Positions 17,303 to 62,540 of a stretch of DNA of 64,000 nucleotides are shown piece by piece (position 1 is the first letter of the stretch; the number at the start of each line of letters is the position of its first letter). Below the pieces are notes generated by a model. The model ran no database searches. It was not told the DNA's origin and saw only the letters and a program-made list of their open reading frames with translations. Where the stretch lies: positions 1 through 64,000 of the forward strand of contig JAMYGW020000015.1 of assembly GCA_025617375.2 (NCBI GenBank). The letters are read 5' to 3'. The position numbers and the translations under genes are program-made. The stretch comes from Acarospora socialis (taxonomy: Eukaryota; Ascomycota; Lecanoromycetes; Acarosporales; Acarosporaceae).

Positions 17303-20300
17303 CTAAGAACCCCAGTAGTATATGGAAATAAACAAAAAAAGCCACACTATATCAACAAAATGTCAGTAAAGTATTGATGACTCTGTTCCAAGGTGATGGT
17401 TATCTGTAGAATGATAAGCCAATACACGTCATAAACCAACAGCTATAAAAGCTGTACCTATCATGACGTGCAGCCCATGAAAACCTGTCCCAAAGTAAAA
17501 ACAAGAACCGTAGGCTCCATCTGAAATAGTAAAAGTAGAAACTGAATACTCTATACCTTGTAGAGCAGTAAATACAATGGCTAATATAACTGTACAAACA
17601 AAACCGTATAAAGCTCCACTTCTATTTCCTTGTATTAAAGAATGGTGAGCATACGTTACAGTTACCAAATCTCAAAATAATAGCTTTATTTGTTTCTATT
17701 ATCCCTGTAATTTATATTAATTTAAATTTTTACAAACAAATATACAAACTATATTTCATAACTGTAAATTTAATACAAATCCTTGTGTTTCATTATGCAC
17801 AATGAAAAGAGATTCCGACTGTACATTAAGCAGCATTTCAGCTACCCACCGGTGAACCAGTCTGTAGCGACCTTTCATACGGCCGACGGTCTTGACTTAT
17901 TACATTAATCGTTAACCGTTAACATCAGTATTGCCCGTAAATTAAAATGTATTAATTTACAAATATTATTTAATAATAATATTTTATTTAATATATAATA
18001 TTTTTTTATGAAAATTGCATATTACATTAATATAGGACTATAAAAAAGATTTAAGATAAATTTACTTTAACCATATTTAATTTATATAAAAAATATGGAT
18101 GTAAATAAGGTGATATTAATGGTATTAAGATAGGTAAATTAGATTTAGGTATATAAATATTATATTGATTTAAATAGCCTGCAGAATGTATTGCTAATTT
18201 TAGTTTATATTTAGTTTCTAAAATATTTACTAATCTTTTTACATCAGATAAAGTAAAACAATTAGTGCATAGCTTAATACCTCTATTTTTAATTCATGAA
18301 CCATCGTCCATTATTCATATAGCTAAAGCTATAGGAGATAAGTATTGTTCTATTCAACAAGGGATAGATTTTATTCCCTTATTACAAAATCCTTCATAGA
18401 TTCAATTAAACGAACTATAAGTGAAACTACGAAATCTACAATAATAAGCTAATTTGTCATTAATTATCCTAGTTTGAATTTGAGGCAAATTTTCTTTGCA
18501 ATAACCATGCTTTAGTAATTGTTGATGAAGTCACAATACATATTCAATATGTTCTCCTTTTTGATAAAAACAAAACCTGGATCCATTACCATATTTTTCC
18601 ATTGAACCATCACCCAGTAAAGATCCTATTAAAATACATAATATTTCATAATTATGTGGACCTGTTCGTTTAGTAGAAGCTACCCTAGGAGAACTAAAAG
18701 GTAAAACAGGTAAAAAGGTTATTTTATTATTATTGTTATTATTATTATTATTATTGTTATTATTATTATTCATTTGTTTCATTATTTTAATCATTATTAT
18801 TTATATTAATATATATATATTTACATAACTATCCAAATTAGTATATAATTCACCAACTGTGTAAGCGGAGAAAGCTAATGCTATTATTAATATTATTAAT
18901 AAAACCCAAATATAAATAGCACCTATTTTCTTATTAGAATAAATATGGAATCTAAATAATAGTATTATAATTAAGCTAATTATAATGACTAAAGATATAT
19001 AATTTGCAACCGCTAAACTAAATAATACTTCTTCTATTGATTCATAGGCAGTAGCTACGATATTGTTATTAACAGAATTGTGTAGATTTATAAAACTATC
19101 TATGTTAGCAGACATAGCATTAATACCGTAAATAGAAATTGATATTCCGAATAACACTATTGCAAGAATAAATCAGATCCAAAAAACACTCATTTGTTTA
19201 TTTAACTTAATTATTTTATTGAAATAATATTCTATTTTACTGTTAATGTTATTACCTAATAGTTTAGATAAACCTAAATTAATGCTATCTTTTAGATACA
19301 ATTTATAAACTAATTGTATTATTAATATATATATCATACTCAAACAAACGTAATCTATAACCTCAAGTTGAAAAAATAAAGTTTGTAAAGAACTAACTTG
19401 TGAATCACCTAAAAATTTATTAATACTATCACTAGTATTAGTTGCAGTATATATACCACTAGCTTTAGTAGATGTAATACTTTTATTTACACCACTAATA
19501 AATGCTTGACCTACACCTCCAAGTACACTAGCACCAACTATTACACCAGCTTTTTGTAAAGGAGGCATAGGGGATTTAGCTATAGCCTTTCCTACTCCTC
19601 CAGCTATACCAACCATAGCACCAGTTATTCCCATTTGAGTTGCTATGCTTTTACCTGCTTCTTTATCATTAACATGAACATGTCCTTGTAGGTTTACATT
19701 AGTGTTTACATTAGTATCAATATCATTATTCATATCACCAGCACTTAAAATAATATTTATTGATGTTATGTTGTCGTAAATAAATAAAAAGCATAATAAA
19801 GGTATAACTGAAAAAGAAAAAATTTGTGTATATTTTAACACAGTATTTTTAGATAATTTTCAATCGTCTAAATAAAATAACATAAAACTAATTGTTAATA
19901 TCAAAAACAGTATATATATATAATAATAATTTTTAATAATTTTGTAAGAAATAAGTAGAATATTTGATAAAAGTAAATTTAAGCATAATAATAAAATAGG
20001 TAAATTAAATAATAAAACTGTTAATAAAAAAAAAAAGCAAATTTATAAAATCTTTTTCATATAAGGCATACACCAGAGGATAACAATATTACTGTATTAA
20101 GTAAAGGTAATTCAAAAGGATTAACAGCGTTTATACCCATTGGAGGTCACTGAGCTCCCAACTCAACAGTAGGAGAGAGTGCACTATGAAAAAATGCTCA
20201 AAATATAGCTAGAAAAAATAAAGCCTCTGAAACTATAAATAAAGCAACTCCCATATTTAAACCTCTTTGTACGGCCAAAGTGTGATTACCTAAATAAGTC

Positions 20301-23300
20301 AAGTATACATAATTATATTAAGATTAACTTAATTACAAACATATAGATTAGATATTATATTAATTCTAAAATTTATTAAAATGATCTCAGTTATAATAAA
20401 TCCTTTTTTTATTCATGAAATCTTTAATGGTACGTATTTTAAAAATCTCTTTTTTTGTTAAACGTTTACCTAAATAATTTATAGATTCACTATAGTTTAA
20501 AAAATCCAGATACTTACTTGTCATAAGCGGATATTTATTAAAATAATTAGTTACTAAATAATGTTTTTTATCTGATTGAACATAAAAAACTAAAAGTTTA
20601 GCTGGTTTTTTGAATAAAGGATTAGTAACTAATCTAAAATTTAAGTTACATTTAAAGAAATAAGCTAATTTTGTCCTAAACTCTAGAAAAGACTCAGAAG
20701 TTATTTTATAAATTTCTCTTTGGTTAATAGAAAAAACAGTAATAACACGTCCACGTGTATTTAAATCAGAATCTGTCTAAATTCCACTTAATTTAATGGA
20801 AAAATTACCGTCTGCATCTGCATCAGTAAATCAATTCTAATCATGCATTAGAATTGAAGTCACTATTGTCTAAATGCAATTTTAATAAATTAGTGTTTCG
20901 TCATTTATTAAGATTATCAATGGCTCTATATAAAGCTTCTACTTCTGGTGTACGAAAATAACCATTTATAAGGTTAACTATTTTTATTACTGTTTCTGCA
21001 TTAGTAATTTGAAATCTACAAACATCTGTTTTTCCTTTATAAATATTTACAGTTTTAAGTTCAGTTTTTAGTTTTTCAAATATAGCTAATTCTTTTTTAT
21101 GAAATGTAATTATGATAGCTGGAGATGTTTTTTCTAATTTTCCTATTCTTAAGAAAATATAACCATCTCCTTCTATCAGTCCAGCTAAGTATGGACCTAA
21201 TTGCCTTTCAGTTTGTTTAAAAGTATTGTTTAGATTAATATAATATTTATTTTCTGTTTCTATATGTGTCTGTGTCTGCTTCTGTGTATGTTTGTGTGTC
21301 ATACTAAGAATATCTAGATTATAATTATGTATACAATATATTTCTATATTGATTGGACTATATCTTAACTTAGCTTAGAAATATATTATTCTTTCTAAAA
21401 TATTAGTTCTTGACATATAGTCTCTGAAGATCCTACTAAGGTAATTATATACCTGTTGGTTTCCTGCTGATAGACCTATATTATATAGGAGTTTCCAGCA
21501 AATAGTCAAGTTTAATGAGGCCACTTATTATTAAAACCGATACTGTAAATTAATTAAAAGAAATATATTTAATTTAAATTGCTCAAAATAATGGAAATTG
21601 ATCAAAGAGATATTACCATACAAATTAATATAGCAATTAATATTAAATATACTCATAATATATTTGTTTTATCTCATCACTTAAATATTTTTAGAAATAT
21701 AATTTGTATATAATCACCTAAAGATAGCTTTTTAACAAATTCAAACTTTAAATCACGTTTACTAAAATTTTTCATAATTAAAAACATAAAAACTAATACA
21801 AGTAAATAGATTATTACTATGTGTAAATAAAAATCTAATTGTAATTGCTCTATATCTAGTGAAGATATAAGAGAACCATTTCAATCTCCAACAATAGAAT
21901 GATCTGAATCTCCAACATTAGAATCTCCTGGTTCTATTACAGATTTGGCGGTATAAAGCTCATCAATCTTTTTGTTTCAAGAAGAACAAGTAGTAACACT
22001 ATCATCAATCTTTTTGTTTGAGGGAGAAGAAGAAGCAGTAACACTAGAATTTATCTTATCAATTTTTACATTTAAACTACCTTGAGTGTTTGTTTTAGTG
22101 GATGATAAATTATTTTGAACCATTTTATAACCAATCAAAGATGCAGCACCCATACCTAATGTAGCACTTAATTTAGCTTCTATGGGTAAACAAGTAGCTT
22201 TAACTACTTTAGCAACAGCTGCCATTACTCCTACATATATAGCACCATCACGTACTTGTTCTATTGCAACATCTAAGCCATTAATTTTTATATTTTTTGC
22301 TTCTAGATCTAGAACACCTTTAGCTACATTAGGGCTAGAGTTATCCTTAGCCATACAAATTATATTTTGAGTATAAAATAAATTATTCATATAATATAAA
22401 TTATATATATCAAATATGTATAAACTAATTATAACAAAAAAAAATAAAAAAGAAAATTTAACATTTAATAAACAATATCGATTTAGACAAATGTGCAACT
22501 TTAGCCTCTGATATAACATCACGAAACCATAAAGACATAGAATAAATTAAAGATATAAAGGCTAATAGTAAATAGTTTTCTGCATTGTTAAATCCATGCA
22601 TTGTTAATACCAAATTATTTTTTTATCTACTGGATTAACTCCCATAGCGACAAGTTAGTAGTTTAAGCCCTGCCTTAGTTTAGGAAGAATACGCTAACCA
22701 GGCTTCAAAAAAGTGTTAGTCGGCAAACACTTAATTGTTAAGCTGCCGAACTAAAAACTTTTAAGGTAGATATGCCAACACTTACGTATTGGGTAGGACT
22801 ATATCTTATTTCTCTAATTTGTAAAAGCCTTGTAAATGATTTCAGAAGAAAATAGTTCTTCTACTATTCATTCCTTCTTTTATTTGTCTTACATTGTTTA
22901 AATAATTAACATCACCTGGATGAAGATTGTTTGCTTTTTTAAGCTCTAAGACTTTTAATCAATCTAAGTAATTCAAGTGTTTACTACTAAATAATAAATA
23001 TTTATTAAAATAGTTTCACACTAATATGTTACTAGCTAAATTTATAGTTCTCACTCTGTATTGAGGATGATTTGAATCACCTCTTGTAACACCTAGTGTA
23101 CTACCTAAGAAATTAGCTATTTCAGACATAAAAGCGTAATTACTTAAACCGTTGTGATATATTTGTCTTTGTACTATTTCAAATCTACATTCAACTACAG
23201 GGTAGCTTCCTTTAGTCTTTGAACTAGCAGATCTGACCGTAAAATGGCCATCTCCATCTGTAAATCCCGCTAATCATGGATTAGAGCCCAGAGGTTCAGA

Positions 23301-24062
23301 ACTTAAAGGCAATTTAGGAATAAATGTATTAGAATATCCTGATACTTTTATTCAGTCAATTAAATCATGTAATGCTTTAATCTTAGGAGTTCTCATCTTT
23401 CCATTTATTAAAGACACAATTAACATGATACTCTCTTTGCTGTTAAAAGTCAAAACATAAGCATTAGCTCCTTTTCTTTTAGACAAAGAACCATGGCCTA
23501 AAGTGCTTTGAATCATTAAAGCTAAAGACATATCACGAGAATCCAACAAAATTTGCATAGAAGGGTAATATAATCTACCTTTGCTCGATCTTTCAGTTTT
23601 AGGTACTATTATCGTACCATCAGCTTCAATTAAACCAGCTAAGTAATGCGAAAGCATACTAGTGTTTCTATTATAAGGGATATTATTACTTGTTGTTTCG
23701 TTTTTGCTAGAAGAGCCAACATAACAAGTAGTGTCCTTATCTGAATTATCAGCTGATGTTTTTACTGGCAAACAAAGCAATATAGACATAAATACAAAGG
23801 CAGCACGAAAGAGAAACTCAAGCGTAGAGTCTCTGAAGATACCTAAAAAGTCCAAACTTAAAAGGTTTCCTGCTGATAATCCTAGTACTATCATTAGTAT
23901 TAGGAGTTTCCAGCATATAGCTTGATTTGAAACAGGCATATTAAAAAGTTTACCTGTGGTTGTAAGGGCTAGCAGAGAAATGCAAGTGTAAAGAGGTCAA
24001 GGAGAAGGAGATACTAAGTGAAAAGGATGAGCTTGAAAATTACTTCTTGTTAAATTTGTCAT
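17303..24062 (-). CDS. cox3: cytochrome c oxidase subunit III (four exons)
   Basis: Core subunit of complex IV in the inner membrane. Exons are 23952-24062, 22503-22610, 20072-20299 and 17303-17665. Together they give 810 nt and 269 residues, the family length. Landmarks are the start [33 protein letters not shown], the [14 protein letters not shown] block, [43 protein letters not shown] and the end FISIYYWGS. All junctions follow the group I rule (exon ends in T, intron ends in G). TGA codons are Trp. It has three introns, two of which carry a GZ orphan ORF together with a LAGLIDADG gene. No defect was seen. Confidence 0.95.
18051..18794 (-). CDS. LAGLIDADG endonuclease of cox3 intron 3
   Basis: 247 residues from the ATG at 18794, seven bases below the stop of the GZ ORF. 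After MIKIMKQM comes a poly-Asn run from an ATT repeat, then [20 protein letters not shown] (first LAGLIDADG-like helix) and, further on, IALAIWMMDDGSW (second). This is the LAGLIDADG_2-type arrangement seen in cob and cox introns. It is related to the endonuclease of cob intron 2 (shared GPHN, LLGD, NSFT and WMMDDGS/WIMQDGS blocks). The frame is open to [12 protein letters not shown] homing endonuclease or maturase role is expected. Confidence 0.85.
18801..19883 (-). CDS. GZ-family orphan membrane protein in cox3 intron 3
   Basis: 360 residues from the ATG at 19883 (the frame is open further up to about 20042). Order of parts: hydrophobic N-terminal helices; an Asn/Val-rich stretch ([14 protein letters not shown]); a glycine-zipper segment with alternating small residues ([19 protein letters not shown], then [20 protein letters not shown]); a Ser/Thr linker; a helix pair with LGLSKLLGN and [15 protein letters not shown]; and two further C-terminal helices. 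It is most similar to the ORF in cob intron 3 ([25 protein letters not shown]). Probably inner-membrane; function unknown. It is not in frame with the upstream exon as read. Confidence 0.75.
20300..22502 (-). other. cox3 intron 2, group I
   Basis: 2.2-kb intron between ...FRDVISEA and TYLGNHT. A group IB-type core is visible at 21360-21525 (plus strand GGACTATATCTT, then TAGTCTCTGAAGATCCTA, GGTTTCCTGCTGAT and TTTCCAGC). It carries a GZ ORF and a degenerate LAGLIDADG gene. Confidence 0.85.
20366..21302 (-). pseudogene. LAGLIDADG endonuclease of cox3 intron 2, degenerate
   Basis: The N-terminal half is intact (133 codons from the ATG at 21302): [14 protein letters not shown], then [22 protein letters not shown]. 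The second half is recognisable by similarity ([11 protein letters not shown], then [23 protein letters not shown], and the end WDHFNKF) but is split by a frameshift and an in-frame stop around 20780-20880. The end resembles the orphan LAGLIDADG at 11038. Probably no longer an active double-motif enzyme. Confidence 0.8.
21569..22519 (-). CDS. GZ-family orphan membrane protein in cox3 intron 2
   Basis: About 316 residues. It begins within or just after exon 2 but in a different frame from cox3; the ATG at 22519 or an internal ATG could start it. Parts: an N-terminal hydrophobic helix ([14 protein letters not shown]), [13 protein letters not shown], a small-residue segment ([37 protein letters not shown]), a Ser/Thr/Asn linker, the family motif [11 protein letters not shown], then C-terminal helices ([35 protein letters not shown]). 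No stop was seen when read codon by codon. Unknown function. Confidence 0.7.
22611..23951 (-). other. cox3 intron 1, group I
   Basis: 1.34-kb intron between ...LALTTTG and VLTMHGF. Group I core pieces lie at 23830-23905 (TAGAGTCTCTGAAGATACC, GGTTTCCTGCTGAT, GTTTCCAGCATATAGC on the plus strand) and 22796-22808 (GACTATATCTT). The core overlaps the intron ORF, as is usual for exon-fused endonucleases. Confidence 0.85.
22806..23951 (-). CDS. LAGLIDADG endonuclease fused in frame to cox3 exon 1
   Basis: The frame continues without a stop from the cox3 ATG through exon 1 into the intron (418 codons in total). The endonuclease is probably released by proteolysis of this fusion. Two motifs: [13 protein letters not shown] (about residue 138) and [14 protein letters not shown] (about residue 265). 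[20 protein letters not shown] lies between them and [18 protein letters not shown] ends it. Everything is open with TGA = Trp, so it looks intact. Confidence 0.88.
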
Positions 24063-24079
24063 TTTTTTTCTTTTCTTTA

Positions 24080-24167
24080 TTTTTTTTTCTATATTACGTA
24101 TTATTTATTTTATTTTTTAACTAAAAAAAGAATAAATAGTTTATTACATATTTATGTTTATACTAAT
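24080..24167 (-). promoter_or_regulatory. cox3 5' leader (native copy of a duplicated element)
   Basis: 88 bases starting about 18 bases upstream of the cox3 start codon. They are almost identical to 25079-25168, which sits at the same place relative to the orphan ORF at 24312-25067. Only the length of one A-run differs. It probably contains the 5' untranslated leader and perhaps the transcription or processing signal. Confidence 0.7.
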
Positions 24168-24311
24168 CTAAAAGTCTAAATCTAGAACTTAAAAATATTT
24201 ATTAATAATTTATACTGTTAAAATCTTACCACAGATACAAAACATAGATAAAAAAGAAAAAGATCTTTTAATAATTAGATTATCTATTACTTAATCTAAT
24301 TATTAAATTTA

Positions 24312-25067
24312 TTAATTTAATCCACGTAAACTATCTCTCAGTCTAAAGTTATTTTTTAACACATCCCAATTATAAGGTTGATTACTATTACTAGTTGTAA
24401 ACCTTTGATGTAATGCTCTATCATTATGGTATAAATAACGATCTAAGAAGTTTAGATCAGATGAGTTTAATACATGTCTAGAAAGATGAGAGGAGTTATC
24501 ACTTTGAAACGCTAAAGCATTTGCTAAATTATTCGCGAATGGTTGATTACCACCACCTGGGTTGTACACAGTTCCACTCCCATAAATAACTAAAGGTGTG
24601 GTATTTCTACTAGCCGCTTGCTGATTCATAGGACCTCAATTACTATTAGCCATACCTCCATCGCAACCTGCCCTAGAGAATGTACCAGGACCGGTAGGAT
24701 TAGCCACTGCTGGTGGATTTGCAGCTCCAGGATTTGCTGCTGGTGAATTTGCAGATCCAGTATTTGCTGCTGAATTACCTACAGGGTTTCCTACTGGATT
24801 ACCTGTAGGATTACCTCCAGCACCACTACCAACATTAGACATGGCCATAGGGACAGACCCTAAATTTTCAAAGAAAACTGAAATTAAAGGTCTGAAGATA
24901 CAAGCTCCTAGTCCTAGATAAATAAAATCCAAGAAGACAGATAATTCTAAATTAAAGTAATAAATTATTAATGTTCTAAGTATAAACATAGCAACCAAAG
25001 AAAAGCAAGTAATAACAAAGTAACCAAGAGTGTATTTAGCTTTAATTACATTAAAAGTTGTTTTCAT
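24312..25067 (-). CDS. orphan membrane protein with Asn/Pro/Gly-rich linker (SPL-related)
   Basis: 251 residues from the ATG at 25067 (one TGA = Trp near 24636). The N-terminal ~75 residues contain two or three membrane helices (GYFVITCFSLVAMFIL; FLDFIYLGLGACIF). A repetitive Gly-Asn-Pro-Ala linker follows (GNPTGNPVGNPVGN), then a hydrophilic C-terminal domain. That domain resembles the ORF at 59554-59850: QPFANNLANAL versus QPLASNIAQCL and SHLSRHVLNSSDLNFLDR versus SHLSSNLFSPEMQRFLVD. It lies upstream of cox3 and has its own copy of the cox3 leader. Unknown function. Confidence 0.65.
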
Positions 25068-25078
25068 TTTTATTTTAT

Positions 25079-25168
25079 TTTTTTTTTCTATATTACGTAT
25101 TATTTATTTTATTTTTTAACTAAAAAAAAAGAATAAATAGTTTATTACATATTTATGTTTATACTAAT
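25079..25168 (-). promoter_or_regulatory. duplicated cox3 5' leader in front of an orphan ORF
   Basis: 90 bases, the second copy of the element at 24080-24167. It ends 11 bases above the start codon of the ORF at 25067. This places the orphan gene under signals copied from cox3, or the reverse. Confidence 0.7.
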
Positions 25169-25613
25169 ACACAAGGTTGGTAACAAATGTAAATACCCTA
25201 ATCACCCGCTATCAAACAAAACACCCTACAATATGTTTATAGTGGGCCAGAATGATTATGTTTTTTTACAGACAGGCAAACTGATTACTTAAATTCTTTG
25301 CAGATTGTTACTCACCTAAAATACAATTTTTAGACTCTAAACATTTTAGATTAGCTTTTAGAAAATTAGATCTTTTTTTATAAATAGTTATATTTACCTA
25401 CAGTTATACCCATTATTGAAGTGTTATTAGTTAGTGTGCCCTTTTGTTAATTGTGGCTTTTGTAACCTTAGCTCAAAGTATGCATTGTAAGATAAATTTT
25501 AAAAACTTATCTTTAAGATATCACTCAAAAAAAAAAAATCTAATCTCTAACTTAACACAAATAGTAATATTTCTTGCTATTATTAAGACATCTATTTCTT
25601 AAATAATAGCTTT
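25169..25613. other. non-coding spacer, nothing recognised
   Basis: AT-rich spacer between the orphan ORF leader and trnV. No ORF, tRNA or intron core is seen. Confidence 0.6.
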
Positions 25614-25685
25614 TAAGGAATAGGTGATTTGAACACCTAACCCACCGTGTGTAAAACGGTTGCTCTACCCTTGAGCTAATTCCTT
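25614..25685 (-). tRNA. trnV: tRNA-Val (UAC)
   Basis: Acceptor AAGGAAT/ATTCCTT, anticodon stem-loop ACCGT-TTTACAC-ACGGT. Confidence 0.93.
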
Positions 25686-26034
25686 TAAAGTAGAAATAAC
25701 CTGTTTCTACTTTATTAAACTAATATATATATGGTATAATAGATTGATATGTATGGCTGTATTTAATTTAGATTAAAAATAGTATTTTTAGTATATCTGT
25801 GTGTATAAAAATTAGGAAAATAAACAAATATATAAAAGATTCATTCGAATTAATAAACACTTTTAAATATTCGTGTATTTAAGATTAATTTTTTTATGAT
25901 TAGCATTAAATTGGTTTTTATTTTAATCTTATACGGAGTTTATAGCATTTTTTTTTTTACTTTCCTGCTAATAGTGTCCATATGTTGTATTTGCAAAGTG
26001 TCTGCTTGTTAAGGGTCAAATGTGATAGATAAAT

Positions 26035-26107
26035 CGAGTTAGGTCGGAATCGAACCGGCATATTTTTCTTTGACAGTGAAAATCTTTACCAATTAAGAAA
26101 CTAACTC
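26035..26107 (-). tRNA. trnD: tRNA-Asp (GUC)
   Basis: Acceptor GAGTTAG/CTAACTC, anticodon loop CTGTCAA, T-arm GCCGGTTCGATTCCGAC. One mismatch closes the anticodon loop. Confidence 0.88.
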
Positions 26108-26249
26108 TTTAAATTATTAAACTTTAATTGCCATACCATCACCATCCGCTCTCACCGTCCGTTTTTTACGATTTTACTTTGTTTTTAATTTATATATAGA
26201 TATGTTACTTTTCATTTATTTAATAATCTGTGTGTTTAATTTTTTTGTT

Positions 26250-26375
26250 GGGTCTCGGGTCTCGGGTCTCGGGTCTCGGGTCTCGGGTCTCGGGTCTCGG
26301 GTCTCGGGTCTCGGGTCTCGGGTCTCGGGTCTCGGGTCTCGGGTCTCGGGTCTCGGGTCTCGGGTCTCGGGTCTC
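26250..26375. repeat. heptamer tandem array, 18 units of GGGTCTC
   Basis: 126 bases of perfect 7-bp units. It is G-rich against an AT-rich genome. The sequence after the last unit (to 26425) resembles the region upstream of cob (58855-58917), which holds a single GGGTCTC, so the array may have expanded from such a seed. Confidence 0.95.
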
Positions 26376-26533
26376 TAAATATTTATCTAAAGTTGCCTAA
26401 TTTTAGGCTATTATTTTTTTTTTCCTTCGAAAAATATAATTTTTTTTTTAATAATAGTTTTAATTTCAAATTTTTTCATATATAAAATAATTTAGAAAAT
26501 AATACAATATTAGATAAATACACCCATAGCGAC

Positions 26534-26557
26534 TGCAAAGCATTGCAATGCTTTGCA
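26534..26557. repeat. perfect 24-bp palindrome
   Basis: TGCAAAGCATTGCAATGCTTTGCA reads the same on both strands, giving a potential hairpin or cruciform. No function is assigned. Confidence 0.9.
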
Positions 26558-27188
26558 TTACAAATATATGACCATCATAAAAACTAACCAAAATAATAAT
26601 AATAAGGTATTATAAAGTAAGTATAGTATATTTACTTTTATACAAGATATTAAGGTATTCTCTGTTAATATGAGATTAATGTTAAGTTCACATAATGAAG
26701 ACAAACTAGACATGTGCTTGGTTATGTGAAGATAAGCTAGTAAGTATATTAACTCTTTTTCTACTGTTGTTTATGGTAGTTTTCACATATCTTAGGGAAA
26801 TTATTAAAAAATATAGCAACATTTCCTGTTAAACCCTAAATAATTGATATCTTTTTAAGTAAACCTGCTGCTTCACGTAAATGCATAAAAGGCACAAAAT
26901 AAAATCTAAATAAACTAAACTTAGCCTCACAGAGATATAGCCACAAACACAGACATAAATATATTTAAATTATGAAATCATAATTTAAATATATAAGGAA
27001 TGTTTACTTATTACTGCGTTTTAAATTATCTTTTAAAGACACCATTGCTTAATCTTTATTCTCATAGATAAAAATAATAGCAACTAATATAATGTCGATA
27101 TAACACAAGGTGTTTTACATTTTTACATTATTAAAGGATTTAGAAAAGCAATAGTTAATAATATAAATAAATATGAAAAAAAAAGGGG
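26558..27188. other. non-coding region, nothing recognised
   Basis: AT-rich. No ORF, tRNA or intron core was recognised between the palindrome and the endonuclease remnant. Confidence 0.55.
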
Positions 27189-28021
27189 TTTATTCAATAT
27201 ATGCTATTCTTAAATGTTTATAAGGTTTCTTACTATTAGCATACTTTTTAAGAGTTTCACTACATATCTTAGTATTACGCACCGCAACACGAGTAGAATT
27301 ATATACACGAACTTCACCTGTATCCATATTAGTAATAGAGATAATTTTAGCTCTAGGATGTACACATATTTGGTCTTTATCTCACTTTATAGTATACCCA
27401 TTGTATTCACCACCTGAGACAATACGAGATCTTATACTATTACCTGTAGTTTTAAAACCCATATTCCTAAAAAATTTGCTACAAGCAGTTAAACTTTTAA
27501 AAGTTAAAATTTTATTAGTTTTTACATCAAATAAGACCACTTTTTTCCTTTACCTGTGGAAACATCTAGATATTGTCTATCTTTATTTAACGCTTCTACT
27601 AATTTGGGAAGAGAGATATCTGAAGTACTGGCTGTTAATATCTCACTAGTAGTTAATATATACTTACCCAAATAAAGTAACTCCTAATTAATATACCTTG
27701 AAACAGTATTTGAAGTATATATCCCTAACAATGAAAAATCATTTTTTAGACCAGAAAAAAATAAAATAGATTTATCTTTATTATACATAAATAATGTAGT
27801 GTTTTTCCTATGCTTGGCCAACATTTCTTTAACCTCCTCCTCACTAAATTTACCATCTTTAGCTGTAAAGACAGGAAAGGGGAAAAAACATATTCTCCTA
27901 AATAAAATGAACCTGTCTCAATATTATTTACAATAACAGCGTGCCAAATACCAAATTTAACAAAAAAATCTTTAAAAGAACCTAAATGATAAATCAATAC
28001 AGTTTTATCTCTATTATACAT
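27189..28021 (-). pseudogene. endonuclease-associated repeat protein with NUMOD1-like modules, broken
   Basis: It starts just after the GIY-YIG gene. Similar modules recur: MYNRDKTVLIYHLGSFKDFF followed by AVIVNNIETGSFYLG, then MYNKDKSILFFSG in another frame, then KTNKILTFKSLTACSKFF, and finally ISITNMDTGEVRVYNSTRVA. The last two are NUMOD1-like (DNA-binding) units. Several frameshifts, one at an A-run near 27540, split the frame. It is probably a decayed C-terminal extension or companion of the upstream GIY-YIG gene. Confidence 0.55.
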
Positions 28022-28027
28022 AAAAAT

Positions 28028-28585
28028 TTATTTAGATTTGAAAGCAGGAACATTAGCTACTCTAGATACATTTAAATTAAATGACGTATCTAGTAGATAA
28101 TATTGTTCTAATATAAGTTCTGGTTTTAAAATTAAACTAGAATATATGGATATGACCTCTAAAGTAAATTTATCTAATCCTTCTTTTGTTAAAAATGGTA
28201 AAAACTTACCATACTCTACATAAGTATTACTTAAATATCTTTGCAGTCTAGTAGCTAATTGAATAGAAGAGCCTACATACTTAGACCCAGTCTCTTTATG
28301 AGTAAAAATATAGACTCCTGCTACTTGTTTACCATTCATTTTTCCTAACTTTTCAATAAAGTAAGGATCTCTATACAAATCCTTGCGTAAACAATTAAAC
28401 CTTAATCTTGGTAGATTAACTAATAGTTTTAACGCTTCATCTGTAGTATGTAAATTATATATAAACAAAATACTATTTATCACATCAGCTGTCACCTTTA
28501 TTACGTTTTTCATATGTTCAACAGCTTTATTCTGGCTATTTTGCATAGGTTTATCGAAAATTAATCACCACTTTTTTCGTGTCAT
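28028..28585 (-). CDS. GIY-YIG domain protein downstream of nad6
   Basis: 185 residues from the ATG at 28585, with consecutive TGG and TGA both Trp near the start. The GIY-YIG core lies at about residues 103-135 (AGVYIFTHKETGSKYVGSS, then ATRLQRYL), and LILEQYYLLDTSFNLNVSR provides the Glu region. It has an N-terminal ~100-residue extension and lacks the NUMOD tail, which may be represented by the broken ORF just downstream. It follows nad6 by 125 bases, with no displaced nad6 exon visible. Confidence 0.8.
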
Positions 28586-28709
28586 GATAGTGCCTACATT
28601 TTTTTCATCTGAGATCTGAGACAGCTTCCTTTTTTACAAGGCAAGACTCAGTATGATAATTTCGTTTATTTCCTAAGGCTATACTTTTTAAAATCATTAT
28701 TTAAATAAT

Positions 28710-29390
28710 TTAATCCTTTTGTTTAATAACAATTATTATAACACCGACCATGGCTAACAATAGTATTATAGAAGTTATAATAAGTCATATTGAATAACTA
28801 GTATACATTATATTACCTATACTAGTTATATGTGTAGTTTCCGCCAGACTACCATCTCAAATCTTAGTTGTTACAAAGGGTATTTTATCATTATCGGTAA
28901 TAAAATTTAATAATTTATTAAAAGAGTAAATATTATTATTATTATAAAAAATCTCATTTTCATTTCTGTAAGATGAGTTGTAAAAATTAAAACTAGAACT
29001 ATTAATAGCAGCTAAACTAGAAGGTAATATGTGATAAACAGGGTAATTAAAAGATAGAACTATTATAATAGCTAAAGGTATACTGTTACTGGTATCACTT
29101 AATAATTCAGATATCCTAACATTTATTAACATTAATATAAAAAGAAATAAGATTGATACGGCTCCTACATATACTAATAAATAAGATAAACCAATAAAAT
29201 TTATACCTAACATTATTAAGTAACAAGATATACTTAGAAACAAACCTATTAGAAATAATACAGAAACTATAGGATTTTTACTAATAATAACCAATATACC
29301 ACAAAGAATCGAATCTAAAGATATAAAATCCAGAACTTCAACTCTGTAACCATTAGTGTAGGTTTCGTTTAGAACAAATAAACTATACAT
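28710..29390 (-). CDS. nad6: NADH dehydrogenase subunit 6
   Basis: Complex I membrane-arm subunit, 226 residues from the ATG at 29390. It has five hydrophobic helices. Conserved parts are NPIVSVLFLIGLFLSISCYL and GLSYLLVYVGAVSILFLFILML, and a hydrophobic final helix ends VGVIIIVIKQKD. A Ser/Asn-rich loop (NSSSFNFYNSS) lies between helices 4 and 5, as in filamentous ascomycetes. One TGA is Trp at 28857. No intron. Confidence 0.95.
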
Positions 29391-52400: not shown

Positions 52401-55400
52401 TATTCTAAAGCATTTCGATCATCTTTATGCAAACTAATTCTAAACACAAACTCAAATCCTACTACTCCCCCTTGTTTATTTTTACGCACACGACATAAAA
52501 AATTAGACTCTGCTTCACAAATACCTACAAATCATTCAATAAATGCAATACTTATTGAAGGTTTAGATAATACTTCATGGGAACCCTTGTTTTCCCTATT
52601 GACCTCACTAAAAGGTGCAAAATGGGCTACTGCTTTTATTTGAGGAACAGATGAAAACAATTTAAAGGGAACAATTAAAGAAGTAATACATTAACCTTTC
52701 GGTATACAACCCTGTCCCACGTCCAGAGGTGGGAATCGGAAAATTTTATTCTAGATTATCTTAATATATTAAAGGTTTCATTAAATTTCTTTAATGTTAG
52801 GACTATATCTTTACCCCCCCCCTTCTAGTTTTTACTGCTGGTCAGCGAAGGAGGATATATCACGTCTAGTCTCTGAAGATCCTACTAAGACTGCAGAAGC
52901 TGCCTGTTGGTTTCCTGCTGATTGCTCTAAACTAAGTTTCCTTACTTAAACTATACAATTAGAATAAATTAGTTATTAGAGGTTTCCAGCATATAGTGAT
53001 ATTTTTCAACAGCTATTACTTAACTGTTGCACCTCATAGTGACATTTGCCCATACGGTAAAACATACAAACCTACTCTATAATATATAAAAAGCTAGAAT
53101 AACTTTAATTTCGTGTATTCTATTAATAAACCAACAAACGAACGTTTGTATTATTAAAGGTCCCGACTGTACATTAAGCAGCATTTCAGCTACCCATTAG
53201 TGACCCAGCCTGTCGCGATTATCTAAATAACCGACGGTCTCAATTTTTTAATCTTTGACCGTTTTCACTAACATTGCCAAACAAATAAAATTTTTATCTC
53301 TTCAATAATCCTGTCGGACTATTACACTTTATTTTAAAGATTAATTTAATCTTTACTTTAATAATTATTATTAAAACTATTTTTTTATAGAAATTGCATA
53401 GAAATTTAAACTAGTGTGACTATAACATAAATTATCTTTAAACATTTTAATTTTTATAATTAACAATAAACCGTGTTTTTAATATTTTCTTTTCTGTTTT
53501 TAAAGCTCTATTAATAGTTATAGGACTACAATTAATATCTTTAGCAGCTTCTATTATACTAGGATATTCCCCAAAAACAGTATAATTTAAATTATATAAT
53601 ATCACAAATTTAGATCTTTTCTTCATATTTAACAAACACTCTTCTGAATAATTAACTTTTTTTATCTTTTTTATCTTTTTTATCTTTTTTATCTTTTTTA
53701 TCTTTTTTATCTAGATAAAAAAAAAGATAAAAAAAAAGAAAGCCCTTTCTCTCATTTTTCCTATAGTTTCTGAAGATAATTTCTTACTTCTGTTTGAATT
53801 ACCCATAAACTCGCGACGTTGTAAACTAAAATTAGACTTCATTTTTATAAAGTTAATTCAGTGTGTTTGTACGCAAAACTTGTACCAGCCTCAGTTAATA
53901 TATTATAGTTAGGCAATAAAGATTTTAAATAAAAATCTTCCAGATCTAATAATTTTTTATTATTTTCTTTATTCACTATCTCGGGAAATAACTCTAGAAC
54001 TAAAAATGCAAAGTTATTTAATTTATATTTTCTTACTGCGAGTTTTACTATTTTATTTCCACTAAAATATAATAAATGATTAGAAAATCTGGCGAAGAAT
54101 TTATTTGTAGAAGCAGATCTTACATAATAATCTCCAGTAATTTTATTAAATATAAGATATACACCACTAAGATTACTAGTGTCTTTTCGTATTAAACTTT
54201 GCGTACTTTCTAAGTGCAAATTTTCATAAAGGTATACAGGCTTTAATTTATTATCTGTTAAAAATCTCGCTAATAATTCATTCTTGGTAATTGTAGTTGT
54301 AATTGTTCTTGTCATTTTCATTGTTTTTATTTATTTCTTAAAAAAAATGTACAATTTTACATAATTATTTATGTGAGTGTACAAATCCCCGTAAGTATAA
54401 ACAGCTAAAGCTAAAGTGACTATTAATATTAATAAGGTTAATCAAATATAACTATTTTTTATATTGCTATTAAAATGAAACTTTAGCATTATTTGTAATA
54501 TCAAGAAAATTAAAGCAATTATAGATATATAGTGAGTCATTTGCAAGTTTAGTAATATATCTTGTATTGAATTATTGGACATATGTGTAGGACATATGTC
54601 ATTAAGAATAGTAGGATTAAATCTAGTTTCTATATTAATGTAACTATCTAAATTAACTAATATGTCATAAATAACATATGTGTTAATACCTAGCCCAAAC
54701 ATTATTGTTACAGAACCAAATCAAATTCATATAACACTCATTTGTTTGTTTAACTTAATTATTTTATTAATGTAGAATTCTATTTTAATACTTGTTCTAT
54801 TACCTAATAACTTGGATAAACTTAAATTAATATTATCTCTAAAATATAATTTAAAAACTAGCTGTATTATTAATAAGTATAGTACACCTAAACAAACAGA
54901 ACTCATCATTTCCCCGTTAAACAATAATTCTTGTAGAGGACTAAGATGATTATCATCTATAAGTTTATTTACGTGTGAATCCGCACTGGTACTTGAAATA
55001 GAAGAAGCTGTAAGATTAGGGTTATTTACATAAATATTTTTTCTATTCATAGTACTTATTGCTGAATGTCCTAAACCAGCAGCTAATCCACTACCTACTA
55101 TAAAGCCAACTTTTTGTAAAGGAGGCATACCACTTTTGGCTACACTTTTTCCTACAACAGTACTTACGCCAACTATGGTACCACCTAAGCCTCATTGACT
55201 TCCAATTGTAGCTAATCCTTGGCCTATAGCTTTACTTGCTTCTTTATCTATAGACACATGTCCATGTGCGTGTAAATTTACGTTATTTTCATTATCTTTT
55301 ACACAACTTAATATATCTATAGATAAAGTATGATTATAAGCAAGTATAAATACTATAAAGGGTAGACTAATGAAAGAAAAGATTTCAATATATCTAATTA

Positions 55401-58400
55401 AATTTATATTGGATAATCTTAAATTATCTAAATAAAATAGAACTAAGCTAAATGTAAATATGTTTGTATAAATATTCATAAAAATATTATTATTAATGGT
55501 GTTGTTAAAAAATAAAGAAATATCTGATCAAGAAATGTTTAAAAATAATTCATGTCATTTTGGGCTATAAACATAACCCAGGAATGCTGTCAAAGTTCCG
55601 GCTAACTATAACCTAAATTTATCTGTATAGCGCCCCTGTATTTTATCAATATATTAGTCCCCGATATTTAGCAGATATCTTTATAATATATATCATTTAA
55701 AACCTTGTGTAACCCTTTTATTTTAGTTAGGAACTTCCGACTGTACATTAAGTAGCATTTCAGCCACCCACTAGTGACCCAGTCTGTAGCGATTATATAA
55801 TTAACCGACGGTCTGTAAACAGATAATGAATGTTTAACCGTTTTCACTAGTGTAGCCAGGTAACATACCCAATACCCATGTCAGGGCATTCTACTTTAGT
55901 TTTTAATTAATGCTAATGCAAAAAATTATAAAACAGTATCTTTTTAATTATATATTACATATACTCTAAATTAAAGTAAGACTTTGATTTGGGGGAGTCA
56001 AGTTAGAGATATCCTCTAAATTTATATTTCATTTCGTCTATAATATATGGTTTAACTATTAAAACTAAATCAGCCGTAGATTGTTTTCAGATACTTATTT
56101 TTCATTGAGCAATATGTCCTGCTTTCACAACACTAGTTTTAAGGCCATATTTTTCTTTAATGATTTTACTTAAGTAAACACAATCCTCATATGTAAAACT
56201 GTTGGTTGCAAGAGATATTCCTGGATTCTTTTGTCTGGATCCATCTTGCATAATTCAATGAGCTAAACCTATTGGTGTTATAAATTCTCCTATTCACTCT
56301 GGTATCTTTTTTACCATACTACCATTAACTTCATGATAAAATGAGTCATATACTCAGAATAGACTAGTAAAACTATATGTTGTTAATCTATAGTTATAGC
56401 GAGTTGATGTGGGATCTAATCGTTTATCATCCATTGATTCAGATTTAACAACCAATTTAGGTGTAACATTAGAACAGTAACCTAATTCATGCAAAAGAAT
56501 ATTAAGATGATGAATATAAGCAGAATTTCTTACACCCTGTTCTATACTAAACCGTACAATATCCATCTGTTGACCTTTTATCTTGTTACACCATAAATCA
56601 CCCAACATACCATATATTATTATTGATAATACATCAATATTATGAGGACCAATCCTGCGGATTGCTCTCGTTCTACCTTTATTAAAAGGTAAGGTAGGAG
56701 AAATGATGTTATTATTATTATAATCTTTAACTTGAGATATCACCAATCAATTTGGCCACATAATTTTTTTGTATAGCCATCATTAAAATAAAGATCACTG
56801 TACCAATAGTTCAAACTAATGTTCTAGGAGCTTTGTATGATCCGTAATATAAACCTCTACCTATATGTAAGTATATTATAAAGAAGAAAGCTGAAGCTGT
56901 ATTTGCATGTAAATAACGTAATAATCATCCATTATTTACATCACGCATAATCAAATAGTGTTAATTATCTACGATGTTCTAATCGTTAGACGTACTATCT
57001 ATAGGATTAAAATAGAAAAGATATTTCTTTTTATATAATCTATTTGTATCAATGTAACAATTACATGTATTACTACTAGATTTTAATCCTAATGATTTAT
57101 GTGCGGCACTATATGAAGCAAAAGGAGAACCTTTAATCATATTTTTACCTTCATATATATAAACAGTGTTTGACTTTTCAGATCTGTTAGCTAAACTAAA
57201 TGCCCGTACATGATCAATATGAGGCATATTAGCCTGTACATCAAATAGAGGATCTTTAGCTAATATAGCTTGAGATCTTTCAAAAACACCTTATATAATT
57301 TCATCTATATTTTTAGTAGATGTTGTACCATATCTTTTGTTAATAATGTCTGAAATATCCAGAAATAATCTTTTACCTTCTGGTAAAAAGTAGTAACCAT
57401 GTATTTTTAACAATAAAGCCACTCTTCATAATTTAAAATATATAGCTTTACGTGTATACATATTAGACGAGTCTAAATAAGGCAATAAATAGTAATATAG
57501 ACTGTCTACACTATTATCAACTAAAGATACTACATTTGTTTTTACATTAGTCGTACTTACTACATTCAAAGGCAATATTTTAATCTTTTGTAAAACATTG
57601 CTAGGTAATCTAGTTAAAAAGGTTGTTATGGCATTTAAACTTTCTTGACTTGTATTTTTTTGAGCTACTTGTAGATACAAAGCAGACCCTGTTTTAATAC
57701 CAAAAGTACCTTCACCTTCTAGAAATCCTATGAATCAGTTAGGGTTTATTATAATTTGAAAATTTCTAACTTGATATGTAAATATTTCTCTTTTAGAGTT
57801 CATACCTTTTTTAAGAGATATGATTCTTGCCATTTAAACATCCGATTTTTTTTGATGTAATCTTTAATAAGCACAGCCTCATTAAAGTCTTCAAAATCTA
57901 ATCTTTTACTAGTGTGTAAATGGAAACAATTGAAAAGAGGACATATTACATTTTTTATATCTGTATAATTTTCTACAATAAAAGAACAACGATTTCTACT
58001 ATTTTCTACTGTAACAATTCCTATATTTAACTTAGATTTATGGTATGAAGAACCTCAATATCATCAAGATGTAATGATATTTTAAATATGAATTTTACAT
58101 AATTACGATCTAAAGTAATTAAAAAGTTACCTTCTGCATCAGTAAATCCTTAAAATCAAAACAAGAAATCATCAGAGACACCAGATAATCTGGAGTTCTC
58201 TGTGTCTAATTCAGACTTTTTATAGGAAATAATAGAAAAATGAAAAAATCCCATTTTTTTTTTTTATTACCCGATACATAAATAAAGAATAGTAAACTTA
58301 TACCTATTAAAAGGTATAGATAATTAATCACATCTATCTATAATTTTTCAATCACAGTTGGACTATATAATCATCTCTATCATTATTTATATATAGGATG

Positions 58401-58729: not shown

Positions 58730-59553
58730 TTTTTTTCTTTAGATTATTTAATTTTATTTGTTTACTTTTCTAGAAATTTGTAAAATATTAAGTAAATATA
58801 GGGGTTTAATATTCAAATATTAATTAATATGATAAATATCTAGATATATTTTAGGGGGTCTCTAGATATTTTTAAAAAGATCTCTAGTTGTCTAATTTTA
58901 GGCTATTTTTTTTTCCTGGTTAGGTTGTTTACTATTTACTGTTAACCATTGACCGTATAATGTTAACTGTTGACTATTCATTGTAGCATCCGGCTAAATA
59001 AGAATTAATCTTATTGCTAATATCTTTTAAACATTAAAACATACCATTTTCTTACAAATTTTTTGCTTCATCATTTTTAATAAAAAAATTCAACCGTAAA
59101 CACTACCATAGCAGTAAAAATTAATATAGCCAAAACAGGAACAAATACAATCTGTAAGATTGGGTAAGTACTGTTATAATTTTAAACTATAAAATTATTT
59201 ATAATTTATTGTTTAATTATCTATTATTTTTATAAGCAAAAAGCGAAGTAAATAATAAGATGAAAATGGAAGATTAATCCTATAGACGTTTTAGAAATAA
59301 ATGGTAAAAAGGTGTGTACTAGCAAATAAAAACAAAAATCAAAAATGATTATTACCAAAGATATTAGATATGTTTTTTGATGTTTTTATATGTTTTTATA
59401 TCTTTTTATATATTTTTAATGGTGCTAGATAAACCTAATAAAAAGCTATTAATGAAGCAAAGAAAAAGACAAATTGACCAATTTAAGGAATATTCCTTAA
59501 ATTGTCTCTAAGTGCTTTTGTATTAGATATATTTCACCACTGAGGAGTAGAAT
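58730..59553. other. non-coding region upstream of cob
   Basis: No gene is seen. Bases 58855-58917 (GGGGGTCTCTAGATATT ... TCTAATTTTAGGCTATT) resemble 26366-26425 beside the heptamer array. The remainder is low-complexity AT sequence. Confidence 0.55.
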
Positions 59554-60440
59554 TTATCCCAGCTGCAAGATAAAATTTTTCATAACAGGATCATTTGCCC
59601 TAAAGTGATCTACTAAAAATCTTTGCATTTCTGGCGAAAAAAGATTAGAAGAAAGATGACTACCTGTTTGTTGATACCGCAAGTCAAGACATTGAGCAAT
59701 GTTACTAGCTAGAGGTTGATTAGTATCATTCTGGTTATATTGACCTACCAGACGGTTAAGTTGACCGAGAGGATCCTGAGGAGTAGTTCTAGATAGATGA
59801 TGATTATACCCACCTCTTTGGTTACCTAGATTACCTTGGTTACCCATCATGTTACATATGACATCATCTTTAAACAGATATATAAATTTATTGATAATTA
59901 ATTCAAAAGTTTAAAGGATAAAATAATAAAGTATAACCAATGCACCAAAATTAACACAAGTTACTTTATATGTCATAAATACTGCTATAATAAATATATA
60001 TAATAGATAGAGGTGAGTTAAAATCCGGGTTTTGTGAGACAAGTGTTACTTGACTTACAATACAACTAATTAAACCACTATATACGAAAAATAATGGCAT
60101 GATATTTAACTCCATACAACAAACTTTTAAAGAAGATTAAAAAAAAAATAACCATTACTGAAACAAACACAACAATTACTAAATGACTTTTGAGAAAACT
60201 TAATAATTTATTTGGAATAAAAAATCCACTATGTAAAGGTGAATTTATAAATTTATGTGGTTTAGGTGGGTTATGTGTATCTGTACTGATATTATTTGCA
60301 ATAGTGCTAAATAAACCAAATAAAATTAATAACAGTAAACTGTTATCTGCTAAAGAAAGATATGGTATTAATATATAAAAAAGTAATTCCACTAATATAT
60401 ATAAAACATAAGATGTAATAACACCAGCGCTGCTTACCAT
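59554..60440 (-). pseudogene. displaced nad5 3' end followed by a broken SPL-family tail
   Basis: The frame at 60078-60440 starts with a near-copy of the last nad5 helix ([38 protein letters not shown]). It runs straight into the SPL motif NPPKPHKFINSPLHSGFF and a membrane helix, then stops. About 200 bases further a second open stretch (59554-59850, 98 codons) matches the C-terminal domain of the ORF at 24312 (QPLASNIAQCL, SHLSSNLFSPEMQRFL). It appears to be an older nad5-SPL fusion, cut off from nad5 and decaying. Confidence 0.7.
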
Positions 60441-60559
60441 TATATATTAATAATAATGAAACAAACACACAAGATAGAAATACTCCTTATAAAATACAGA
60501 CTACAGACCAGAAGTTTTAATATTTTTATTTAGATCTTTATATGTTTATTAGCTAATCT

Positions 60560-61290
60560 AAAAATGTTCTATTTATATTTAGTATTTTGATACATTTCTG
60601 TTATTATATCAATGTGAACAATTAAAAAATATGCAAAATATATGGAATTACTAGCTATAATTAAAAAAATAAAACCAAAAAGCATTAAAAGTTTATTTGA
60701 TTTATTTGTAAAAGTAAAACCCTTCATAAAATAATAATAGAAATCCTCTCCGATTATTTTTTTTTAATAAAAAAAAAATAATCCCATTTTTCGTTGAGAA
60801 TTTTTGTGTTCATATATAATATTATTAAATAATATATTAACAATAGTATAGATATAGTTAGTACTAAATTAGCATATAAAAACTCCATTGCTAATTTAAT
60901 TCCATCTGTAACATTACTATCAGCATTTTTTAAAACAGAAACTGTTCTATCGTCTTGATATATATTTGAAATTATATAAATATTTTCTCATAAACTATAA
61001 GCAATATATATATAATAAAACTAGTTATCACTAATGAGACTCAATTTACAAACATAACTGTTTTTGTTTTATTAATATATAAATATAATAATATTACAAG
61101 TAATAGTAACATAAAAACACTTATCCATAAATTGCAATAAAATAAATTAATTACATTTTCCACATTATCCCCCTCTTCTATGACAGAACTTGCTGGACAT
61201 GTACCACCACTATTTTTATCATTATTAGAAAGATTATTTTTGCAACAATCTAAACTTTTTTTAGTTCATGTATTTACAGCATTAGTACCC
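60560..61290 (-). pseudogene. GZ-family copy, broken
   Basis: It contains the family motif CPASSVIEEGDNVENVINLF followed by helix IFMLLLLVILLYLYI-like sequence, and near 60700-60850 a second part resembling the C-terminal helices of the nad5 tail (YMNTKILNEKW-like, MLFGFIFLIIASNSIYF). The frame is interrupted several times. It lies directly downstream of the nad5 fusion. Confidence 0.6.
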
Positions 61291-61300
61291 ACAAAAACTA

Positions 61301-62540
61301 TTATTTTTTGTAATATAGATATAATTCTGTTATTATATCTATATATTGGATAAAAAAAAATATTGCCAAAATCAAAAGCAAAGAAGCTATGACAGATAAA
61401 ATCCAACCAAATAACATTCATGCTTGGTTGCTTTTACTTGTAAAAGTCAATACTTTAAATAAATAATAATAATAATGTTTTCCAAATATATTTTCTAAAA
61501 AAGATAAATTTCATTTTTCATTAATAATTTTGGTGTTTATATACAACACAAACAATAAGTAAAGTAAAAACAATAGACTGACACTTATTACAAAATAAGA
61601 AGATAAAAACATATTTGTTTCCTCTATTTCATTTGTTGATGGATCTAATGTGCTATAATTTACTCTAGAAATACTATTATAATTTTGATATATTTCTGAT
61701 ATTGTGTCTATACTTATCATCAAATTGTAAGCAAAATAAATAGAAAATAAACTAAAGATAACTAATAAAACCCAAATAATAAAAAGACGTAGCTCCCCAG
61801 ATATCTTTTGTCTGTGTGTATATAAATATATTAATAAAAAAAGCAATAATAATAAGCAAAGATTTAATAATAAATTACTATATAAAAAATTCATTATATT
61901 GTCTACACTATCTCCCTCTTCTATAATAGATTTAGCGGGATAAGCATCAATATTACCATCACAATTACTAGTAGTGTTTTTAGTTGACTCTAAACTTTTA
62001 TTAATTTTTGTATTTGCATAATTAGTTAAAACAAATGCTCCTCCACCTATTGCACCACCTAATGCAACCATTCCTGCTTTAGCGGTAATAGGCATACTAC
62101 CTCGTTTCGCTCCTTGAGCAAAAGCATAAATACCAGCAGATACTGCACCACTAGCACCTAAACTACTTATGGCTGTACCCACAGAACTAGGTAAATTAAC
62201 ATTAGGATTATGTATATGTAGATTAGGTTTTTCTACATTAATATTAGTATTATTATCAGTAACATTTGAATTAACATTTTTAGCTAATTCATTAGCTACA
62301 GATATTTTTCTTTCTGTTTCTTCATCAATACAATATAACGGCGAGAAATCATTTAGTAAAAAGTACATTATAAAGAATAATGTAGCAGATAAAATAAACA
62401 AAATTAGAAAGTTTTTATATTTATTTACCATATTATATAAAAATGTAATATAATTTCCTAATCCTGCTTCAACAATAACATTACCTTGTTTCAAATCAGA
62501 ATGCGTTAATTTTAAATTAAATATACTAGAATTCCTGTTT
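61301..62540 (-). CDS. C-terminal extension of nad5: GZ-family protein
   Basis: In frame with nad5 (see that entry). It shares YCID-ETE-K and the glycine zipper with the free GZ ORF at 35013, and the PA-S-IEEGDS motif with the ORFs at 21569 and 35013 and the broken copy at 60560. It has at least five hydrophobic helices. Whether it is cleaved from ND5 is unknown. Confidence 0.75.

Follow-up and report, generated by a model that had tools for sequence, protein, structure and literature searches.

A family of putatively mobile membrane proteins in introns, a gene tail and spacers of Acarospora socialis mitochondrial DNA

Open reading frames (ORFs) in organellar introns are translated as fusions to the upstream exon in described cases (PMC3073962, PMC12308204, in the sections available), and fungal mitochondrial DNA (mtDNA) holds membrane ORFs of unknown function that are plasmid-associated or non-conserved (available sections of PMC4201751, PMC10234125 and PMC9744193). 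Core genes may also carry foreign tails, as in the in-frame C-terminal extensions of cob and nad6 of Phlebia radiata (PMC4019555, in part) and the second atp9 of Sclerotinia borealis, which has an unrelated tail of 213 amino acids (aa) and lies in an mtDNA with nine intronic and 14 free-standing hypothetical proteins (PMC4162613, in part). The available sections of PMC3605234, PMC6279837, PMC8208691, PMC7424523 and PMC8260586 contain nothing closer to the family described here. This family, called GZ, was predicted as six glycine-zipper membrane proteins in bases 1–64,000 (the window) of contig JAMYGW020000015.1 (C15; 247,525 bases), part of the 31-Mb assembly GCA_025617375.2 of the ascomycete Acarospora socialis. 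With about even confidence, GZ is read here as a family of mobile inner-membrane proteins that travel as passengers of homing introns in fungal mtDNA. The literature searched, in which protein sequences were not compared, gives no description of the family or of a pairing between a membrane ORF and an endonuclease, and comparable ORFs are quite possibly already annotated as hypothetical proteins.

C15 is fungal mtDNA. The rRNAs, tRNAs and recognised core genes of the window are all on the minus strand, and genetic code 4 fits. Since matches within C15 come back about 131.0 kb apart, the contig appears to cover a circle of about 131 kb nearly twice; the first 200 bases have no exact second occurrence within the first 140.5 kb. 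The assembly contains a second mtDNA type, C38, with about 84–98% identity to C15 over the main aligned pieces, and a third, C16, with 79–86% identity in the two stretches compared. These three types might reflect a mixed sample, a hybrid or heteroplasmy.

The five open GZ members that the original prediction placed in the window are found there, all read with code 4:
18804–20042 (stop to stop), minus strand: GZ 18804, 413 codons, C-terminal module possibly doubled
21572–22546 (stop to stop), minus strand: GZ 21572, in cox3 intron 2
35016–35804 (stop to stop 35016–35843), minus strand: GZ 35016, free-standing, C-terminally shorter than the other members
54334–55605 (stop to stop), minus strand: GZ 54334, in the cob intron, C-terminal module possibly doubled
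61304–62541, within the nad5 ORF 61304–63574, minus strand: GZ nad5 tail, an in-frame extension at the end of nad5

The predicted count of six is revised in two ways: the sixth, broken copy is not independent, and the family is larger, with ten open members of 263–424 codons in the assembly. Eight are in C15 (18804, 21572, 35016, 54334, 61304, 84406, 109510, 121832), one is at cob in C38 and one at cox1 in C16, five of the ten thus lying beyond the window (84406, 109510, 121832 and the C38 and C16 members); the count leaves out second-lap repeats and contig C33, whose first 10,000 bases are a copy of C15 104199–114198 at 99.95%. The proposed spread across introns, gene tails and free ORFs is borne out by the C15 members, four of which are intronic, one a tail and three free-standing. 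A tblastn search of the assembly with one member, in which only the best 20 candidates are scored, lists 13 matches, all in C15, C16, C33 and C38, and GZ 121832 came from the ORF listing of C15. A simple composition model predicts 0.0003 stop-free runs of 270 codons per 131 kb.

Kinship had been proposed from a common layout and three motifs. In the numbering of the original prediction (18801, 21569, 35013 and 54331 for 18804, 21572, 35016 and 54334), all three motifs are present: PA.S(I/V)(I/L)E.GDS in 35013 and the nad5 tail, with a variant form in 21569; YCID.ETE.K in 35013 and the nad5 tail; and LNKQMSV.WIWF in 18801 and 54331. By BLASTP, every window member links to at least one other at an expect value (E) ≤ 1e-9, the weakest best link being 21569–35013 (5e-10), and several other pairs are weak, such as 54331 and the nad5 tail (E 0.24). 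That the members are paralogues is upheld by leave-one-out searches with hidden Markov models (HMMs), which recover 10 of 10 at 67–300 bits. Scores at the level of shuffled sequences, which had been named as one outcome that would help to undo the family, did not arise, as 200 shuffles per member reach at most 6.5 bits. In the tree, 21572, 35016, 61304 and 121832 group with 100% support; a YCID.ETE-type sequence occurs in 35016, 61304 and 121832, and an (L)FYLD start is common to the other six members.

The best of 14 control proteins from the same mtDNA scores 18.9 bits against the GZ profiles and belongs to a second membrane family, KGW (KLGWNTP..RNSPLDH), located at window 13780–14679 and at C15 89333–90481 and 128965–129732. 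One KGW copy is joined in frame to a cox1 exon and, in an arrangement resembling that of GZ, its end is overlapped by a LAGLIDADG ORF. KGW3 is the top control in 9 of the 10 leave-one-out runs (7–19 bits) and KGW1 in the tenth; a direct comparison of the GZ and KGW profiles gives a probability of 2%. The two may be distant kin and are kept apart here. The KGW family has no relatives in IMG/VR.

Six members are intronic: those in cox3 intron 2, cox3 intron 3, cob and cox1 of C15 (4/8), in cob of C38 and in cox1 of C16. Each occupies the exon-proximal ORF slot of its intron and is followed by the ORF, whole or broken, of a homing endonuclease. In the window, the relevant features are:
about 24062–23946, 22610–22500, 20299–20069 and 17665–17306, minus strand: cox3 exons, mapped by tblastn with the intronless cox3 of C38
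17666–20068, minus strand: cox3 intron 3, between exons 20299–20069 and 17665–17306, holding GZ 18804
18054–18800, minus strand: LAGLIDADG_2 endonuclease ORF (PF03161, 3.1e-45), after GZ 18804 in the same frame with one stop between
21334–21566, minus strand: catalytic core of a group I intron, immediately behind GZ 21572 (RF00028, 64.4 bits), with an exact AAGATATAGTCC, which we take to be the P7 motif of the core
20369–21374 (ORFs 20808–21374 and 20369–20776), minus strand: split LAGLIDADG_1 endonuclease (PF00961, 3.8e-10 and 2.2e-5)
53067–55574 (ends approximate), minus strand: cob intron between exon ends TAFLGY and VLPYGQ, holding GZ 54334 and a GIY-YIG-like ORF
53848–54330, minus strand: GIY-YIG-like ORF of 161 aa, after GZ 54334 with one stop between

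At three of the six intron copies, the GZ frame is continuous with the upstream exon. GZ 54334 is in frame with the short upstream cob exon (TAFLGY), and the same site in C38 likewise has GZ in the exon frame, followed by a 302-aa GIY-YIG ORF (PF01541, 1.6e-6; NUMOD1). Between these two sites, the GZ proteins are 42% and the endonucleases 69% identical; the C15 GIY-YIG-like ORF itself has no Pfam match at 0.01. GZ 84406 is joined in frame to the cox1 exon ending in QHLF and is followed by LAGLIDADG_1. At the same site in C16, a split LAGLIDADG lies behind GZ, and C16 168655–169628 holds a broken GZ followed by GIY-YIG remnants. GZ and endonuclease are thus arranged alike at cob in C15 and C38, and again at cox1 in C15 and C16. 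The paired endonucleases belong to LAGLIDADG_1, LAGLIDADG_2 and GIY-YIG, and 3 of the 6 intron copies have an open GZ next to an endonuclease that is split or truncated.

The proposal that GZ multiplies with introns stands as far as its presence in introns and the empty alleles go: as cox3 of C38 has no introns, both cox3 members have an empty allele there. The movement itself is probably due to the intron and endonuclease, since intronic GZ pairs with endonuclease ORFs of three kinds. According to the preferred passenger reading, unspliced pre-mRNA would be translated, so that GZ would be made joined to the C-terminal end of a truncated Cob or Cox1, entering the inner membrane during synthesis and perhaps then being cut free. 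Homing by intron and endonuclease would spread GZ, the copies that recombination brings into spacers and onto gene tails would use copied leaders, and the ultimate source might be a linear mitochondrial plasmid. For the element, GZ might serve in membrane anchoring of its nucleic acid or intron products, which is a guess.

The surroundings of the free members include:
35805–35964, minus strand: 5′ leader of GZ 35016, related by descent to the leaders of ORF 32833 (87%), ORF 7217 (86%) and nad6
97466–100663 of C15: single-subunit RNA polymerase ORF, 1066 aa (PF00940, 3.8e-76)

The leader of GZ 35016 and that of nad6 are 80% identical over 160 nucleotides (nt; E 2e-39); the GZ leader is presumably the copied one. 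Leaders common to core genes and free ORFs lie upstream of window 7756, 29390, 33393 and 35804, where three ORFs have the nad6 leader, and the cox3 leader is 97% identical over 95 nt to the leader of ORF 24312 (window 24062 and 25067). GZ 109510 and ORF 108541 have in common a 54-nt leader (91%) that ends 21–23 nt before each first ATG. Within a set of seven proteins, ORF 108541 scores 36 bits against the ORF that precedes the RNA polymerase in C15 and is intact in C38, and weakly, at 18 bits, against the polymerase itself. The polymerase ORF, which we take to be of plasmid type, probably comes from an integrated plasmid; it has no relatives in IMG/VR. The third free member, GZ 121832, overlaps a downstream LAGLIDADG_2 ORF by 29 nt.

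These neighbours, namely the polymerase ORF with related ORFs in the same mtDNA and one GZ adjoining a polymerase-related ORF with a leader in common, also suit a different explanation, that integrated mitochondrial plasmids left GZ behind as a decaying remnant without present function. Two broken copies have been seen, and, in the sections available, PMC4201751 ties membrane ncORFs (non-conserved ORFs) of Agaricomycetes to plasmid genes and reports introns with plasmid genes in two species. The proportions of nonsynonymous and synonymous differences (pN/pS) were obtained by simple counting and are therefore rough for diverged pairs: 0.65 [0.55–0.76] for 18804 and 54334, the pair proposed for the selection check, 0.58 [0.45–0.74] for the cox1-intron pair of C15 and C16, 0.75 [0.63–0.91] for the cob pair of C15 and C38, and 0.72 [0.61–0.86] for cox1 of C15 against cob of C38. 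These values suggest weak constraint on the GZ protein sequence in the four pairs tested, and this weakness is itself what a remnant would show. Against decay, all four intervals stay below 1, ten copies are open over 263–424 codons, and GZ is still open where the endonuclease is broken at half of the intron copies. The remnant explanation is considered rather unlikely, with enough in its favour to be taken seriously.

Several observations count for the passenger reading: the recurrent arrangement at cob and cox1, the empty alleles in C38, the pN/pS values below 1, the GZ frames open next to broken endonucleases, a codon usage nearest to that of endonuclease ORFs, and the leaders of 35016 and 109510. 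The pairing with endonucleases, which also counts for it, can be put in numbers. Home-made profiles mark 41 of 122 minus-strand ORFs of ≥80 aa in C15 as endonuclease-like, and such an ORF lies −60 to +220 nt downstream of 5/8 open C15 members, against 8.7% of random positions and against 4/27, 5/38 and 2/20 other non-endonuclease ORFs with length limits of 200, 150 and 250 aa, respectively. One-sided Fisher tests give 0.015 (200 aa), 0.007 (150 aa) and 0.009 (250 aa), with distance limits that were chosen after the loci had been seen and a comparison that is confounded, since an ORF in an intron usually is an endonuclease. Both of these points weigh against the passenger reading, and so do the following. 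No endonuclease follows three of the eight C15 members; both cox3 members (2/4 C15 introns) are out of the upstream exon frame, the stop-to-stop frame of 21572 overlapping the 3′ end of the exon in another frame; and in C16 two stops separate the cox1 exon from GZ. A group I core is found only in cox3 intron 2 among the GZ introns, as the cob introns (C15, C38), the cox1 introns (C15, C16) and cox3 intron 3 give no Rfam match and motif matches that are inexact or absent. The endonuclease pieces of the same introns are more constrained than GZ (pN/pS 0.50, 0.32 and 0.34). GZ 54334 groups with 18804 and not with the same-site cob copy of C38, which would mean, at only 70% support, that GZ has moved between introns apart from its endonuclease. 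As to the plasmid source, it leans on one locus (109510), and the codon usage of GZ is farthest from that of the RNA polymerase among the groups compared, with distances of 0.34 to endonuclease ORFs, 0.48 to KGW, 0.55 to core genes and 0.67 to the polymerase (no significance test). AlphaFold2, run on window-only alignments, gave two unusable models with a mean predicted local distance difference test (pLDDT) of 41 and 42.

A stronger form of the pairing, in which GZ and a homing endonuclease make up a recurrent two-gene homing intron where the membrane protein plays an active part as an anchor, an addiction factor or a timing device, is held to be doubtful. If it were true, GZ would be made only from unspliced pre-mRNA, and homing introns of fungal mitochondria would carry a new membrane arm.

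What the protein might do can be approached from its anatomy. Hydropathy agrees with a membrane protein, a simple threshold scan predicting 2–7 hydrophobic segments per member. The common plan begins with one or two N-terminal segments and a polar stretch of Asn, Val and His, continues with a hairpin rich in Gly and Ala around K...P..QKAG and then a Ser/Thr linker, and ends in a C-terminal module whose two segments flank a positively charged loop. By the positive-inside rule this loop would face the matrix; the fusion points of cob and cox1 are presumably on the intermembrane side. The module looks doubled in 54334, 18804 and the nad5 tail, a doubling that is weak at the protein level (E 0.002, 0.23 and 0.84). 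The Gly zipper from which the family takes its name was not confirmed: GxxxG counts are above composition in 0/10 members (p 0.09–1.0) and small-xxx-small counts in 2/10 (p 0.028 and 0.049), and no Pfam Gly-zipper model is among the matches listed. The hairpin contains 28–44% Gly+Ala, against 9–13% in whole GZ proteins, and is a Gly/Ala-rich hairpin rather than a strict GxxxG zipper. An oligomer or a pore, as put forward in the original prediction, is a hypothesis.

No named family had been recognised at first sight, and the protein, domain, phage and plasmid libraries searched likewise give no credible relative. Pfam at E ≤ 0.5 yields seven weak matches for the ten members, one member each (best 0.0092), and none to LAGLIDADG, GIY-YIG or reverse transcriptase/maturase domains. 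NCBIfam gives nothing credible (best 0.0086), PADLOC no family, PHROGs one weak match (one member, E 0.016) and the PDB a single match (E 0.2). A profile of six members finds nothing credible in GTDB contigs or in IMG/VR, where one member was also used as a query, and one member has no match in PLSDB plasmid and phage records.

A hairpin rich in small residues together with further hydrophobic segments, in a protein that is paired with endonucleases and stays open next to broken ones, would also fit an addiction, killing or membrane-permeabilising partner of a selfish element, which punishes the loss of the intron. Against it, PADLOC gives no family and PHROGs only the weak match above, and three of the loci are absent from C38. 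No immunity partner was identified, and none was sought. This explanation is given little chance of being correct.

The nad5 tail shows how a GZ copy sits at the end of a core gene. The features of this region are:
59409–62541: insertion of 3.13 kb at the 3′ end of nad5, just before its stop, absent from C38
60560–61290, minus strand: broken GZ, duplicating the 3′ half of the GZ tail on nad5
60300–60427, minus strand: diverged second nad5 C-terminal end, 91% identical to 62546–62673

C38 joins the equivalents of C15 59408 and 62542 with a five-base overlap, and the C15 frame leaves nad5 at TTIK and runs on as GZ. Compared with C38 nad5 across one 128-nt stretch, identity is 97.7% for the upstream nad5 end of C15 and 93.0% for the second copy inside the insertion; the upstream end is therefore read as the probable native copy. 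The broken GZ, counted by the original prediction as a separate member, is a partial copy in tandem, displaced by 743 nt and 71% identical over 153 nt, and the DNA of the module repeats at 60579, 60947, 61308 and 61677. The nearest relative of the tail is the free GZ 121832 (98% support).

A fused frame that stays open for more than 400 codons, along with the nad6-like leader that precedes GZ 35016 (35013 in the earlier numbering), might mean that GZ is a host-useful respiratory or splicing accessory domesticated from mobile DNA, with the nad5 tail working in complex I. The second mtDNA type argues otherwise, as C38 is without the tail and without both cox3 introns, and five GZ queries, 35016 and 121832 among them, match only the cob-site copy in the 67,000 bases of C38 compared. 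Given also the duplication and decay in the tail region, a use to the host appears very unlikely.

Other joints and copies were noted in this mtDNA. C15 123535–127750 holds part of rnl with rps3, a second copy within the contig; the end of cox1 and cox2 form one continuous ORF at C15 72657–74075; and a diverged second cox2-like ORF follows cox3 at window 15933–17399. An ORF built with repeated ELDGRAV units lies at window 34201–34836, and an apparent partial copy of the atp6 3′ end, joined to unrelated sequence, at window 6556–6993. Stretches of the type PPKPH..LPLQS / SPLQSG recur at gene tails and joints (window 15933–17399, 48217–50193 and 60081–60446; C15 74050–74775 and 81157–81984). They were first read as a separate mobile tail, a reading that was dropped; they look like pieces of the cox1 C-terminus that stand beside foreign segments.

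A family definition that joins intronic, fused and free copies would allow hypothetical ORFs to be given names, to be counted and to be tested in fungi at large, and it would reveal whether homing introns and mitochondrial plasmids exchange membrane genes. It would also advise caution, in that a fused nad5 tail should not be taken as a true part of complex I.

Set beside the described systems, as far as the available parts of the sources allow, GZ resembles the exon-fused intron proteins (PMC3073962, PMC12308204) in its intron position, in its frame continuity at cob and C15 cox1 and in its optional presence, but differs from them in showing no endonuclease domain, in being a predicted membrane protein and in forming an extra ORF before the endonuclease ORF. 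With the plasmid-associated membrane ORFs (PMC4201751, PMC10234125, PMC9744193) it has in common that it is unnamed, has transmembrane segments and lies in an mtDNA with a plasmid-type polymerase gene; unlike them, compared by description, it is a family of ten members, 4/8 of them intronic in C15, with endonuclease neighbours. Like the fused tails of Phlebia radiata (PMC4019555) and Sclerotinia borealis (PMC4162613), nad5 has gained an unrelated in-frame coding tail, but here the family of the tail is also intronic and free-standing, and a tail-less allele exists in C38.

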